Assembly (NCBI RefSeq): GCF_003207825.1
Contig: NZ_NKTY01000005.1
Coordinates: 62,001-126,000 of the forward strand
Origin: Komagataeibacter saccharivorans
Lineage (GTDB): Bacteria; Pseudomonadota; Alphaproteobacteria; Acetobacterales; Acetobacteraceae
Length of the DNA: 64,000 bases
Direction of reading: 5' to 3'
Shown here: piece after piece, positions 29,968-34,344 of the stretch
How the letters are laid out: the number at the start of each line of letters is the position of its first letter
How positions within the stretch are numbered: the first letter of the stretch is position 1
Position numbers and translations under genes: made by a program
The notes under the pieces: model-generated
Databases searched by the model: none
What the model was told of the DNA's origin: nothing
The model's input: the letters and a program-made list of their open reading frames with translations, nothing else

Positions 29968-30702
29968 TCAGTTCGCCCTGGTGCCCAGCCTGGCGTCACA
30001 CTCCCAGCTTGATGTTCCTATGGCGGCTGCCTGCATGATGGATGGCGTGCGCCATTGCCGGGGCAGCAGGCAGGTTTTATGGATGACAGGCGGCGGTGGT
30101 TCTACCGCATCGTCATTGAACGGCGTTCCATCCTCACGCACGGTGCCCGTCAGGGCATTTACGCTTACATGCAACCCGTCATTACCGCTGCCAGCATGCC
30201 AGTACTCCTCGTCCCACCCGGCAATGATCCATTGGCCCTGCCGTATGGTCAGGCGCCAAGTTTCATTCCAGCGCCACGCACTGCCACCATAATTCTTCAC
30301 CACGACAGAACCATGACTGAGGGTAACCCCCTGAAACGGGTCGCCCATAATGCCGCCATCGGATGGCCCTCTGGCAATATCATCGCTGGAGATAACCTGC
30401 CTGCCCGCAACGAAAATGCGCAGGCGACGTGGCCCGCCATCCCACCCGCGCAGGACATCAATGCAGGCCATCACCGGCGCAGTGGCCCCAACCGGACCTT
30501 TTACGCTGGTCTCCGTTCTGTACCCGGCCTCAACCCTGCCACATGCAGTATTTACGCCGTCCGTCGCCGCTGCCTTATGGAACGGAAAAGACAGCACCGC
30601 GCATCCGCAAAAAAGAACGGGGACGCATCGGCTCAGATGACGGTAAAGCCGAAACCGTGATCGAGGAGCACTCATGGCCATAAAATATCGGGCCGGGATC
30701 AT
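29968..30702 (-). CDS. Hypothetical secreted protein
   Basis: A protein of 244 residues with no function I can assign. The N-terminus is basic (RSRFRLYRHLSRC) followed by a hydrophobic stretch VPVLFCGCAVLSF and an AAA cleavage site before TDG, so export to the periplasm is likely. The mature part has Trp/Gly-rich strands (VVVKNYGGSAWRWNETWRLTI, WIIAGWDEEYWHAG) resembling periplasmic proteins that report or bind something by a beta-sandwich; two cysteines (CGR near residue 54 and MAC near 79) could form a disulfide. It is convergent with the Tim44-like gene and sits after the ctaB group on the same strand. Alternative starts exist at 30681 and 30675. Confidence 0.65.
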   Translation of the reverse strand: MIPARYFMAMSAPRSRFRLYRHLSRCVPVLFCGCAVLSFPFHKAAATDGVNTACGRVEAGYRTETSVKGPVGATAPVMACIDVLRGWDGGPRRLRIFVAGRQVISSDDIARGPSDGGIMGDPFQGVTLSHGSVVVKNYGGSAWRWNETWRLTIRQGQWIIAGWDEEYWHAGSGNDGLHVSVNALTGTVREDGTPFNDDAVEPPPPVIHKTCLLPRQWRTPSIMQAAAIGTSSWECDARLGTRAN

Positions 30703-30723: not shown

Positions 30724-30870
30724 CTAGATATGCGCAAGGCTGAGCGCATACAGGATCGCAGCCAGCGCCGAAAGCGTAACTGCTACGGCCCGGATGCGCC
30801 CCTTGTGCCGCCGCGCCGCCTCCTGCGCTTCCATCTGCGGTGTAACCTGAACCGTTGTTGCCTGATCCAT
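30724..30870 (-). CDS. Small single-membrane-span protein
   Basis: A 48-residue protein with an acidic-polar N-terminus (MDQATTVQVTPQMEAQE), a basic patch AARRHKGRIR and one membrane span AVAVTLSALAAILYALSLA ending in HI. A ribosome site GGGAG lies 9 bases before the ATG, and the gene starts 34 bases after ctaB on the same strand. The position behind ctaB suggests a small assembly or oxidase-associated peptide similar in layout to CoxF-like proteins; that role is an inference from location and topology, not from sequence identity. Confidence 0.7.
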   Translation of the reverse strand: MDQATTVQVTPQMEAQEAARRHKGRIRAVAVTLSALAAILYALSLAHI

Positions 30871-30904
30871 CTGCCCGAACTCCCGCATGAATAAAACTGC
30901 CCGA

Positions 30905-31864
30905 TCAGTGGGCGATGAAGGCATGGTCGGCCAGCAGGCCCAGAAACAGAAAAAACAGGTAAGCCAGCGAATAACGGAAGGAACGGCGCGCCGGGCCATC
31001 ACCCGTCAGGCTCACGCCATTGGCGTCCTGCCGGTCACGCAGCACCCCGATGGCGCACAGGATGAATCCCAACCCCAGCACACTGGCGACAACCGTGTAC
31101 AGCCAGCCCGCCTGATGCGTGAATGAAGGCACCAGCGATACCGCCATGAGGATGAAGGTATACCACAGGATCTGCCACCGTGTATGCCGCGCACCACGCA
31201 CCACCGGCAGCATGGGAATACCTGCCCGCCCGTAATCCTTGCAGGCATAAAGCGAAAGCGACCAGAAATGCGGCGGTGTCCACAGGAAGATGATGCCGAA
31301 CATCACCACCGGCATGACCGCCATGGACCCCGTGGCCGCAGCCCAGCCGATCATGGGCGGGAATGCTCCTGCCGCCCCGCCGATCACGATATTCTGCGGC
31401 GTCGAACGCTTGAGCCACATCGTATAGATCACGGCGTAGAAAAAGATGGAAAACGCAAGGATACCCGCAGCCAGCGCGTTGGTCGCAAACCACATCAGGA
31501 TGACGGACGCAACCGACAGCCCGACACCATAACCCAGCGCGGCTTCCGCCCCCACGCGGCCATCGGGTATGGGACGGGTAACGGTACGCTTCATGACCGC
31601 ATCGATATCGCGGTCGTACCACATGTTGATGGCCCCGGCGGCACCGGAAGCCATGCAGATGCACAGGATGCTGACAGCCGCCACCAGCGGGTTGAGCGGC
31701 CCCGGCGCCATGGCCAGACCGGCCGCCCCGGTAAAGACCACCAGCGAGATGACACGAGGCTTGAGCAGCACGAACCAGTCCCGTGCTTCCGTGCCCACAC
31801 GTGAGGCATCAAATGTAACGGCGGCGCTATCCGCCGCGCCGGGCGTCGTGATGGTGCCGCTCAT
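30905..31864 (-). CDS. ctaB: Haem O synthase (protohaem IX farnesyltransferase)
   Basis: Inner-membrane UbiA-type prenyltransferase that adds farnesyl to haem B to make haem O for bo3- or aa3-type oxidases. The 319-residue protein has the first Asp-rich motif in INMWYDRDIDAVMKRTVTRP and the second in the LYACKDYGRAGIPMLPV block, with PRVISLVVFTGAAGL at the start and FLWTPPHFWSLSL between. Nine or so membrane segments are evident. The ATG at 31864 sits directly after the stop of the upstream oxidase-subunit-like gene, so the pair is cotranscribed and likely coupled. Confidence 0.97.
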   Translation of the reverse strand: MSGTITTPGAADSAAVTFDASRVGTEARDWFVLLKPRVISLVVFTGAAGLAMAPGPLNPLVAAVSILCICMASGAAGAINMWYDRDIDAVMKRTVTRPIPDGRVGAEAALGYGVGLSVASVILMWFATNALAAGILAFSIFFYAVIYTMWLKRSTPQNIVIGGAAGAFPPMIGWAAATGSMAVMPVVMFGIIFLWTPPHFWSLSLYACKDYGRAGIPMLPVVRGARHTRWQILWYTFILMAVSLVPSFTHQAGWLYTVVASVLGLGFILCAIGVLRDRQDANGVSLTGDGPARRSFRYSLAYLFFLFLGLLADHAFIAH

Positions 31865-31866
31865 GT

Positions 31867-33231
31867 TCAGGCATCCCCATGTGCGGGGGACGGTGCCTGC
31901 CATTCCGGCGTGCGGGCACCCGGCCCCCAGTAATTGGCAGGCAGCGACCGGGCGGGGCTAAGGGCCACCTGCACCACGATCCCGGCGAAAACCAGAACGG
32001 ACAGCCCCATCAGCACGGCACCGACCATACCGACCACCCCATGAAACGCCATCAGCGACAGCACGGTGCCAGCCGTCGTCAGGCCGAAGTGCAGCCTGCT
32101 GGCCCCGCGGGGGGCGACATGCCCCACCATCTTGCCAATCCAGTAATAAAAACCCGCGAACACCGCGAACATGGCGGCATACAGCGTAGCCGCATGCACA
32201 TCGGCCATGCCGCCGGGCAACAGGGACATGGCGGAACCGACCAGCAGCAGGGCAACGAAGCCTGCAGCCCATTCCATCGGCACGGCGGCGCGCATGTGGC
32301 CCAGACGTGCCGTCTGCACCCATGCGGCCAGAACGGCCAGCACCGGCAGCACGATCAGCCCCAGTTGCACCACGGGCGCGGAAGTCGCCATATGATCCAG
32401 CCCACCATGCAGCAGGTCATGAACCCAGACCGAACTGCCGCCCACGGACAGCACGACCAGCGCCCCCAGCACGACACGGGGCATCTGCAGCGGCTTCGCA
32501 CAGAATGTCTCGATCACCTGCGACACGATCCCCAGCGAGGGCAGCAGCAGCAATGCGATTTCCGGCCCGGCGAAGACATGCAGCAGCCCGTCGATCCGCG
32601 CGGACATATCGCCGCCATCAAGCCATACCCGCGTCAGGCCGCCAGCAAGAACCGGCATGACCATGACCGTCATCAGCGCCGTAAGCCCCTGTGCCCATAC
32701 GAAAATGGGCATGTCCCGCAGGCGCTGTCCCATCGGCCCCATGTTCAGCACCGTTGCCACCATGTTGATGGCCTGAAACAGCATGGCCAGACACCAGACC
32801 ATAAGGGCGATAACCGAAACCTGCGCGGGCACGGCAGGGGAAAGACCGGCCAGAACAGCCACGAAGCTGCCCGCCGTAAGCCCCCACCCGGCCAGCGCCA
32901 GACGGGGAAAGGCAAGAGCGCGTGCGCGCAGCAGCAGGGGCACCAGCCAGTTGCCGAACCCGCCGAACAGGGCAGGCAGGGCACAGAAGAACACCATCAT
33001 CATGCCATGGCGACGACCGATGCGCTCAACGGCGGCGGTTGCATCCCCACCGGCCCATGCGGCCAGCACGGAATGCGGCAGCAGGCCCGCCTGCAGGCCG
33101 ACAGCCATCAGCCCACCGGCCACGCCCGCCACAATCGCCATGACGAGATAAAGCATGCCGACGGTCCGGTAATCCCCGGCCCGGCTGGAATCATGCCTGC
33201 CATCCGCCCCGAACTGTGTGCCTGTGGGCAT
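31867..33231 (-). CDS. Degenerate haem-copper oxidase subunit I homologue
   Basis: A 454-residue, twelve-helix-like membrane protein that aligns along cytochrome c oxidase subunit I: RRHGMMMVFFCALPALFGGFG (helix II), INMVATVLNM and MPIFVWAQGLTALM, PEIALLLLPSLGIVSQVIETF (helix VI), VWVHDLLHGG (helix VII) and FAGFYYWIGKMVG (helix X). The low-spin-haem ligands are kept: His75 and His346. In contrast the CuB His of helix VI is Gly222, the cross-linked Tyr is Ala226, the second His of the HH pair is Asp272 (His271 kept), and the high-spin-haem His is Asp344. It should therefore not reduce O2. Start at 33231 chosen for AGGGAG 8 bases upstream. Encoded just before ctaB. Confidence 0.88.
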   Translation of the reverse strand: MPTGTQFGADGRHDSSRAGDYRTVGMLYLVMAIVAGVAGGLMAVGLQAGLLPHSVLAAWAGGDATAAVERIGRRHGMMMVFFCALPALFGGFGNWLVPLLLRARALAFPRLALAGWGLTAGSFVAVLAGLSPAVPAQVSVIALMVWCLAMLFQAINMVATVLNMGPMGQRLRDMPIFVWAQGLTALMTVMVMPVLAGGLTRVWLDGGDMSARIDGLLHVFAGPEIALLLLPSLGIVSQVIETFCAKPLQMPRVVLGALVVLSVGGSSVWVHDLLHGGLDHMATSAPVVQLGLIVLPVLAVLAAWVQTARLGHMRAAVPMEWAAGFVALLLVGSAMSLLPGGMADVHAATLYAAMFAVFAGFYYWIGKMVGHVAPRGASRLHFGLTTAGTVLSLMAFHGVVGMVGAVLMGLSVLVFAGIVVQVALSPARSLPANYWGPGARTPEWQAPSPAHGDA

Positions 33232-33406
33232 CAGATCACTCCCTGCTGCCATGCGCCGGTGTCTGGGCATGGCCAATCGTTACCATGATTTCATCATATA
33301 GCCCGACTTATACACGAAAACGATACTGTGGATCGTTCCCGTGGTCGCGCAGATGTCATTTCAGCCCTGCTACAGGAACAGGGCTGTGGATGAGTTCAGC
33401 GGGAAA

Positions 33407-34120
33407 TCAGGCCACCAGCGGACTGGCGCATGACCCGGCTTCGCGCTCCAGCGTGACCAGCGTGAACAGGCCCGCGGGCGGTACCGGCTGCAGGACCGCT
33501 CGGCGCAGGTCGGCGGGCGGCAATAGCGATTCAATGGCGAAATCCGGGTGCCAGCCCAGCGAGTGCGAAGCACGCGCCATGCCGCGTTCCACCGCAAGGC
33601 GGACCCCGCCCTGCGCAAGGAAGTGATTGACGAACAGGATATGCCCGCCCGGCTTGACCACACGCTTGAGTTCAGCCAGCAGCGCGCGCGGATGCGGCAC
33701 GACGGAGGCCACGAACATCGCAACCGCAACATCGAACGTGCCATCGGCGAACTGGGTCGCCTCGGCATCCATTTCCAGCAGGTTTTCCACGTTGGAAAGC
33801 TTCATGCGGCGCACGCGCTGACGCGCACGCTCAAGCATGTCACCCGACAGGTCGATACCGGTGATCCGCTTGTTCGCGCGATAATATGGCAGGGCCAGGC
33901 CGGTACCCACGCCCACTTCCAGCACCTGCGTGCCGGGCAGCGCGTTGACCGCCTCCACCGCGCGCTTGCGCCCGAAGGCGGAAACGCTGCCGAACAGCGC
34001 ATCGTACACACTGGCCCAGCGGCGGTACGCAGCCTTGACCGCCGCGGCATCCAGCGCGGATTTGGGAGAGGGGATTTCCACAACCTTCTCGGCTGCTTCG
34101 TCGTGCAGAACGTCACTCAT
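33407..34120 (-). CDS. pmtA: Phosphatidylethanolamine N-methyltransferase (PmtA)
   Basis: SAM-dependent methyltransferase of 237 residues of the Rhodobacter-type Pmt family, which methylates phosphatidylethanolamine three times to phosphatidylcholine. SAM motif I is VLEVGVGTGLALPYY, then GIDLSGDMLERAR, DVAVAMFVASVVPHPRALL and ELKRVVKPGGHILFVNHF. The N-terminal YRRWASVYDALFGSVSAFGR matches that family. A pmt gene has been studied in Acetobacter aceti, where it supports phosphatidylcholine content and acetic acid tolerance. Start at 34120 chosen because the upstream frame is unlike the family and the protein then begins at a normal position. Confidence 0.9.
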   Translation of the reverse strand: MSDVLHDEAAEKVVEIPSPKSALDAAAVKAAYRRWASVYDALFGSVSAFGRKRAVEAVNALPGTQVLEVGVGTGLALPYYRANKRITGIDLSGDMLERARQRVRRMKLSNVENLLEMDAEATQFADGTFDVAVAMFVASVVPHPRALLAELKRVVKPGGHILFVNHFLAQGGVRLAVERGMARASHSLGWHPDFAIESLLPPADLRRAVLQPVPPAGLFTLVTLEREAGSCASPLVA

Positions 34121-34344
34121 CAGGCTGTTCCCATGCCCTTGCCATGAAAGAAGGCATCGCCCGCCCCCTTCCGCACCGCATCCGCCATGATCAAATCCGT
34201 TCCGTTCTGCTGCATTACACTTCCACCTGACCTGCCCGCGCGCCCATCCGGCCCGCGTAGCCGCCTGTAATCCATACACGATGCCATGCCACATGGCACG
34301 GCAGTCACGATCACCGCGCCTGCCATGGACACCGTTTCCAATCC

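Follow-up and report, generated by a model that had tools for sequence, protein, structure and literature searches.

A descendant of cytochrome oxidase subunit I that keeps the low-spin haem ligand positions beside the haem O synthase gene of acetic acid bacteria

A stretch of 64,000 nucleotides of Komagataeibacter saccharivorans DNA (here called the window) contains a gene, pCtaD, whose product descends from CtaD, the subunit I of A1-type cytochrome oxidase. The two axial ligand positions of the low-spin haem are occupied by histidine in every copy that we read, the O2-reducing centre has been lost, and the gene adjoins the sole haem O synthase gene. The retention of the low-spin pair next to this synthase points to a lasting haem-handling job rather than to decay. 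Judged from its sequence, the case is evenly balanced for pCtaD being a bis-histidine haem protein that partners CtaB in the supply of haem O to the bo3/ba3 quinol oxidase. From this evidence we infer haem binding, the identity of the haem, a physical partnership with CtaB and the direction of haem transfer; pCtaD would then be a membrane b- or o-type cytochrome, as the original prediction had suggested.

The locus and the ancestral operon

The genes on the minus strand run in the order PmtA-like gene, pCtaD, ctaB and a 54-residue ORF (Table 1). The pCtaD frame opens with an ATG at 33231, which is preceded by an AGGGAG-like stretch, and stops at 31867; an in-frame TTG at 33276 offers a longer alternative. 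The start of ctaB lies 2 bases from the pCtaD stop, and the real start of the PmtA-like gene may lie further in.

Table 1. Features of the pCtaD locus, in window coordinates
Feature	Position	Strand	Basis
pCtaD, CtaD/COX1 descendant, 454 aa, twelve predicted membrane helices	31867..33231	-	ORF, family matches, profile alignment, model
His75 codon (P. denitrificans H94 equivalent)	33007..33009	-	position from ATG 33231 and alignment
His346 codon (P. denitrificans H413 equivalent)	32194..32196	-	position from ATG 33231 and alignment
ctaB, haem O synthase, start possibly 31903	30905..31864	-	TIGR01473, 320 bits (cut-off 210.3)
54-aa ORF with one hydrophobic stretch, downstream of ctaB	30724..30888	-	resemblance to short protein 3' of ctaB in intact cox operons
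PmtA-like phospholipid N-methyltransferase, upstream neighbour	33407..34294	-	NF045882, 158.1 bits (cut-off 390, not reached)

pCtaD matches the COX1 family PF00115 with an E value of 4e-39 (135.2 bits, cut-off 34.8), and its A1 profile matches 1qle_A with 298 bits. Its score with the CtaD model TIGR02891 is 161.5 bits, below the cut-off of 670.75, and its score with the CyoB model is lower, at 93.2 bits. An antisense ORF of 469 aa (31879-33288, plus strand) overlaps the gene; it is probably just a shadow frame, of the sort that GC-rich coding DNA produces. The possibility that pCtaD is itself a chance ORF was rejected, because homology, dN/dS and relatives all favour the minus-strand frame.

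Three COX1-family genes are present in the genome (G000; 3.35 Mb, 107 contigs), which has a single match to TIGR01473 above the cut-off, namely ctaB. The two other COX1-family genes were considered as further copies of pCtaD and rejected: the one at G000:C82:38151, of which a 449-aa part was scanned, has CyoB (TIGR02843) as its best match, and the one on G000:C25 is an intact CtaD in which the CuB and haem histidine motifs are readable. This intact CtaD scores 662.7 bits with TIGR02891, slightly below the cut-off, and is flanked by a subunit II gene (TIGR02866, above cut-off) and a subunit III-like gene (under the cut-offs), the three forming a separate set (L002, G000:C25:25456-29784). In 6 of the 19 Komagataeibacter genomes, pCtaD also matched similar proteins of 548-577 aa. 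CyoB of the bo3/ba3 quinol oxidases belongs to the same superfamily as pCtaD and occurs in the same genomes; in the window genome it is a separate, longer gene. A search of plasmids with pCtaD gave 690 records, all below 60% identity, and the named ones among the 20 listed were ordinary cytochrome c oxidase subunit I.

The origin of the locus is evident from intact operons. One such operon of the same family (L077) has the order PmtA-ctaC-ctaD-ctaB-ctaG-ctaE-DUF983-SURF1, and another (L220) has the same genes, so that pCtaD occupies the old place of ctaD, and the PmtA-like neighbour marks the position of the ancestral cox operon. No match to CtaC, CtaG, CtaE, DUF983 or SURF1 of the intact operon was found, at E 1e-3, in 49 pCtaD loci (10-18 kb) or in the window; as a control, the intact operon L220 matched all five and L219, which lies at a contig edge, matched four. 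A maximum-likelihood tree of 39 pCtaD and 19 other CtaD, in which several long branches and unlike composition were flagged, places the pCtaD together to one side of a branch supported at 100/100. The gene is what is left, in its original place, of an ancestral A1-type ctaD.

The 54-aa ORF is probably another relic of this operon. It also occurs 3' of ctaB in loci of Komagataeibacter, Novacetimonas-type genomes and Gluconacetobacter and in L208, and has weak matches 3' of ctaB in the intact operons L219 and L220 (E 0.019 and 0.011); we take it to be CoxF-like. Pfam gave no family for the neighbours at 30724-31002 and 29968-30702, and the second of these, a 244-aa ORF on the minus strand downstream of the ctaB cluster, had no match in Pfam or NCBIfam.

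Ligand positions and predicted fold

Ligands were mapped on P. denitrificans CtaD (1ar1_A / 1qle_A) through alignment of a profile built from seven relatives, with residues counted by hand; the roles of H94, H413, H276, H325, H326, Y280 and H411 are those that we take from the oxidase literature. H75 falls on H94 and H346 on H413, which places both at the axial ligand positions of the low-spin haem, as originally predicted. At the CuB site G222 falls on H276 and D272 on H326, A226 stands at the position of the cross-linked tyrosine Y280, and D344 stands at that of the high-spin haem ligand H411; the predicted loss of the O2-reducing centre is therefore seen in the alignment. One of the three CuB histidines, H271 (equivalent to H325), is retained, and the earlier description of the HH pair, in which D272 replaces the second histidine, was correct. 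Misalignment of the ligands was considered and rejected, since a gapped MAFFT alignment gives the same assignments as the profile alignment to 1ar1/1qle, and neither brings the missing ligands back.

The CtaD of A1-type aa3 oxidases (P. denitrificans 1ar1, R. sphaeroides 2gsm) is homologous to pCtaD and has in common with it the twelve helices, the low-spin pair, the gene position and, in Komagataeibacter and close genera, a C-terminal NYWGxGAxTxEW-like motif. In contrast to aa3 CtaD, the window copy lacks two of the three CuB histidines, Tyr280, the high-spin ligand, the K-channel lysine and the propionate arginine pair, and CtaC, CtaG, CtaE and SURF1 are absent at its place.

We then compared the window protein and 54 other pCtaD, from 17 genera in all, with 15 intact CtaD. 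The 55 pCtaD were picked non-randomly from search matches and include 7 of the 19 Komagataeibacter genomes (the window counted); away from the motifs, the alignment of several of the more distant ones is weak. Across the 366 well-filled columns, only four are invariant in all 55: H75, W179, W269 and H346. Both low-spin columns would fall among four by chance about once in 11,000 (6 of 66,795 pairs), a figure to be read in the knowledge that real columns vary unequally. The 236 columns that are invariant in intact CtaD have a median retention of 0.20 in pCtaD, and of the 13 histidines among them the low-spin pair is fully kept, with the next best at 0.49. Retention is 0.00 for H276, 27/55 for H325, 0.04 for H326, 0.00 for Y280, 0.04 for the high-spin ligand H411 and 0.00 for the K-channel lysine position (300).

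The old catalytic positions vary among the 55 (position 222 is G, Y, V, L, T or I, and position 344 is D, A, G, Q, P or L), so that no common new chemistry is visible there. This freedom speaks against pCtaD still working as an enzyme or sensor through a new site in the old catalytic cavity, whether haem-modifying, quinone-modifying or gas-sensing, and we consider such a function very improbable. Two tryptophans speak for it: W146 (window codon 32794-32796, minus strand) has been gained in 49 of the 55 against none of the 15 intact CtaD, where the residue is Ala, Thr or Ser, which suggests a derived constraint, and W269 lies in sequence two residues from the old CuB histidine pair. W146 may mark a new contact, for example with CtaB.

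The MPRRY arginine pair of intact CtaD, which we take to anchor the haem propionates, is missing from all 55 pCtaD, and the position of Arg54, which presumably hydrogen-bonds the formyl group of haem a, is arginine in just 7, which leaves a canonical haem pocket uncertain. At the level of sequence, the chief argument against such a site is that the propionate arginines have been lost. Moreover, two tryptophans that are not ligands are as invariant as the two histidines, and invariance by itself therefore need not mean haem. Both observations would fit a haem-free scaffold, in which pCtaD persists as a subunit-I-like stabiliser of CtaB and the histidine pair serves in packing or hydrogen bonding; so would the strict neighbourhood with CtaB described below. 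We regard this as rather unlikely, because of the 13 histidines fixed in intact CtaD only the low-spin ligands are kept in 55/55.

A structural model was calculated with AlphaFold2 from 42 sequences, comprising 20 pCtaD (window included) and 22 other CtaD relatives, 7 of them checked as intact. It has a mean pLDDT of 84.8 and a pTM of 0.88, and the modelling proposed in the original prediction gives the COX1 fold, with twelve predicted membrane helices by our own count of DSSP elements. The best matches of the model are subunit I of aa3 oxidases (1ar1_A: Z 43.9, rmsd 3.0, 422 residues), and the best Foldseek row has an E value of 7.1e-19. With 22 CtaD relatives other than pCtaD in the alignment, the model is pulled toward the known fold, and it speaks for the fold and not for the cofactor.

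Distribution and selection

pCtaD is present without internal stop in all 19 Komagataeibacter genomes, at 77-100% identity. When 299 genomes sampled across the family were searched with the window protein, 284 had a match, in many cases an intact oxidase; of 48 chosen genomes searched with a profile, 43 had matches, here too a mixture of pCtaD and intact oxidases. Both histidines are kept in 23/23 further readings, from the other 12 Komagataeibacter genomes and 11 named loci (several of the latter being contigs among the 55). Searched against Pfam, four distant relatives gave one match above the cut-off, two below and none for L200, which despite this matches the NCBIfam CtaD model at E 4.7e-10. 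Copies in G064 and G143 that the A1 profile search had missed were found by reading upstream of ctaB, and both keep the two histidines.

As a held-out test, a profile (A3) made from 20 members, 3 of them from each of the two genera searched, was run against g31 (49 genomes) and g55 (26 genomes), 6 genomes of each having been used already. g31 is Acetobacter (including A. ascendens, G185, and A. vaccinii, G352), and g55 is probably Gluconobacter in a broad sense, including Swingsia samuiensis (G264) and Neokomagataea tanensis (G370). Matches were found in 47 of the 49 and in all 26 respectively; two small Acetobacter genomes (1.5 and 1.7 Mb) gave no match with the A3 profile. H75, H346, W179 and W269 are kept in all 44 held-out copies (24 from g31, 20 from g55), these being the new loci among the best 30 g31 loci and all 26 of g55, with 17 of the 47 g31 matches, lower in score, left out; positions 222, 226, 271, 272 and 344 vary. 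No substitution of His75 or His346 is therefore present among the 101 copies read (55 + 2 + 44). In the homologues collected, the pair is conserved, and most of the CuB positions are lost, which is what the original prediction had asked; H325 is the one that is often still histidine.

The original prediction held that the gene is not a decaying pseudogene, and counted frameshifts in relatives against itself. Nearly all relatives are intact: there is a single open frame of 404-488 aa in 46/47 Acetobacter matches and in 26/26 of the Gluconobacter-type genus. One copy among the 47 is in three frames (G335:C146:20902-22057), the sole split pCtaD seen, in a genome that is 86% complete; it reflects either sequencing error or true decay. 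Matches in G197, G216 and G368 cross one stop, and in each of them both histidines lie within an open frame of 406-454 aa.

dN/dS was calculated by the Nei-Gojobori method, excluding pairs with dS outside 0.1-1.5 (none for pCtaD in Komagataeibacter or Gluconacetobacter) and dropping genes that had no stop-free match. The genes used were pCtaD 19/19, CtaB 18 and PmtA 16 in Komagataeibacter, and pCtaD 8/8, CtaB 7 and PmtA 8 in Gluconacetobacter. In Komagataeibacter the median for pCtaD is 0.17 (171 pairs, range 0.04-0.25); CtaB has 0.088 (153 pairs) and PmtA 0.13 (119 pairs). In Gluconacetobacter the values are 0.295 (28 pairs), 0.096 (20 pairs) and 0.099 (27 pairs), so that pCtaD stands at approximately twice the value of CtaB in the first genus and three times in the second. 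The pCtaD of g41 is too saturated for an estimate.

Values of about 0.17 and 0.30 argue against neutral decay. A decaying pseudogene held in place by its position ahead of ctaB, through translation coupling, is what work on A. pasteurianus implies, and it would account for the freely varying old active site and the fast evolution, for the pCtaD stop 2 bases from the ctaB start, and for the one split copy, but it is scarcely tenable: the frames are intact, dN/dS is far under 1, and four columns have stayed fixed while the branches on the pCtaD side of the tree total approximately 44 changes per column (summed by hand). In its pure form this explanation is contradicted by dN/dS and the fixed residues, and the prediction that the gene is no decaying pseudogene stands.

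Association with CtaB and a possible role in haem supply

The order PmtA-pCtaD-CtaB is unbroken in 47/47 loci and in 2/2 further ones (49/49). The coupling to ctaB that was first noticed in the window is thus general, with ctaB directly after pCtaD; this is the clustering with ctaB reported for a deranged COX1-like protein in acetous Acetobacteraceae.

Co-occurrence was analysed by three family searches in 59 genomes, 51 of which have pCtaD. Every one of these 51 has exactly one haem O synthase above the curated cut-off and also a longer COX1 protein, of CyoB type by length (in the window genome by family); no second haem O synthase above the cut-off was found in any of the 59. CtaA is matched in 27 of the 51. 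Dependence of pCtaD on haem A was consequently rejected, given the 24 genomes that have pCtaD and no CtaA match; the occurrence of pCtaD goes with that of CtaB and the quinol oxidase rather than with haem A.

The remaining eight genomes have no pCtaD. Inspection by eye shows an intact set of oxidase genes in G094; the ctaB of G049 is at the edge of a contig, with ctaG, ctaE, DUF983 and SURF1 after it. In the other six (G225, G083, G087, G047, G133 and G052) neither CtaB above the cut-off nor pCtaD was found, G133 and G052 having been searched for pCtaD by the window protein and PF00115 only, by which divergent copies can be missed. Three of these six have no COX1 match, and three have only a match of 785-833 aa (E ~1e-41) that is probably nitric oxide reductase. 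The genomes of G083, G087, G047, G133 and G225 are small (1.7-2.1 Mb) and gave no pCtaD, no CtaB above the cut-off and no CyoB-type gene.

These patterns bear on a role as an electron-transfer membrane cytochrome, in which the low-spin haem would relay electrons from quinol or a cytochrome to a partner (a redox step of CtaA or CtaB, ferric iron, or another). In the parent enzyme the bis-histidine low-spin site serves as a redox centre, and the fold is predicted to be intact. However, matches to CtaC, CtaG and CtaE are absent at the place in 49/49 pCtaD loci, and pCtaD occurs both with and without CtaA, so that it is not simply an electron donor to CtaA. We consider this role decidedly improbable.

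The reading that we prefer, haem handling together with CtaB, would run as follows. In the acetic acid bacteria, whose main haem-copper oxidase is a cyo (bo3/ba3) quinol oxidase, ctaC, ctaG, ctaE, DUF983 and surf1 have been lost from the place, and ctaD and ctaB have remained. pCtaD has dropped the O2-reducing centre and the K-channel lysine while retaining, by prediction, the 12-helix fold and the bis-histidine low-spin haem site. It may carry one haem (O or B) at that site and act in the membrane with CtaB, as the first acceptor, holder or relay through which newly farnesylated haem O could pass to CyoB (and to CtaA where present); in addition or instead, haem-loaded pCtaD might keep CtaB stable. 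It would look like a subunit I able to take the low-spin haem, and never the high-spin haem or CuB, akin to a 'low-spin haem first' assembly intermediate made permanent.

The presence of one full-scoring haem O synthase per genome implies a cyo-type enzyme without its own CyoE, and the haem O that CtaB makes probably goes to CyoB. The simplest explanation would be that CtaB, having evolved for the A1-type oxidase, still needs or uses a subunit-I partner and now provides haem O to a cyo-type oxidase that lacks CyoE. The fixed bis-histidine pair appears to favour haem over a mere steadying of CtaB, and the neighbourhood and co-occurrence lend support to a putative role as haem chaperone or COX assembly factor; against a partnership, the linkage of pCtaD with ctaB may be inherited rather than functional, and the higher dN/dS of pCtaD than of CtaB also weighs against the preferred reading. 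It is possible, and we put it forward tentatively, that a single early conversion in the acetic acid bacteria turned a catalytic subunit into a dedicated haem O acceptor or carrier of CtaB, handing haem to a CyoE-less cyo oxidase.

We know of no bacterium in which the route of haem O from synthase to oxidase is known. If the proposal is true, haem O would have in pCtaD its first dedicated carrier, a frozen assembly intermediate turned chaperone. It is of interest in any case that, throughout a group of industrial importance, a catalytically stripped oxidase homologue with one putative haem site kept lies next to the only haem O synthase. Against the proposal, the available text of PMC9145763 states for the bo3 oxidase of E. 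coli that no specific assembly protein is known except the haem O synthase. The same text describes SURF1, which spans the membrane twice and has a large outer domain, as a suggested transient store of haem A and insertion chaperone; the job proposed for pCtaD would be similar in kind, an analogy of function only, drawn from that description.

The original prediction took the system to be not well described, which holds in part. The available text of PMC10715153 describes in Acetobacter a deranged COX1-like protein beside CtaB, proposes a structural role for it on behalf of CtaB, and states, citing Matsutani et al. 2014, that all its metal ligands are lost. This appears to be the same gene, in the same neighbourhood and bacterial family, with the same proposal that it serves CtaB. 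In the accessible part of PMC5158111, ctaB and ctaD have consecutive locus tags (APT_01774, APT_01775) and are conserved in three A. pasteurianus strains. From these two sources, so far as available, the gene and its link to CtaB were already known. The accessible parts of PMC4013037, PMC8239418 and PMC6431628 do not mention the gene, and no knock-out of it appears by title or abstract in the literature searched. The open-access literature, within which the primary paper of Matsutani et al. 2014 does not fall, yielded no report that the low-spin pair is retained. As far as the literature was searched, the new results are this retention across genera, the co-occurrence pattern and the evidence of selection. 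In A. pasteurianus, Matsutani et al. in 2014 reportedly found a working ctaB and ctaA, with ctaD lost through accumulated mutations.

The haem-free scaffold has thus been proposed in print (PMC10715153, available text), but it was accompanied there by the statement that no metal ligand survives, which is untrue for the copies that we read. Both low-spin ligands are kept in 30/30 Acetobacter loci (6 + 24), as they are in the copies from all other genera, and the published statement is qualified by this retention.
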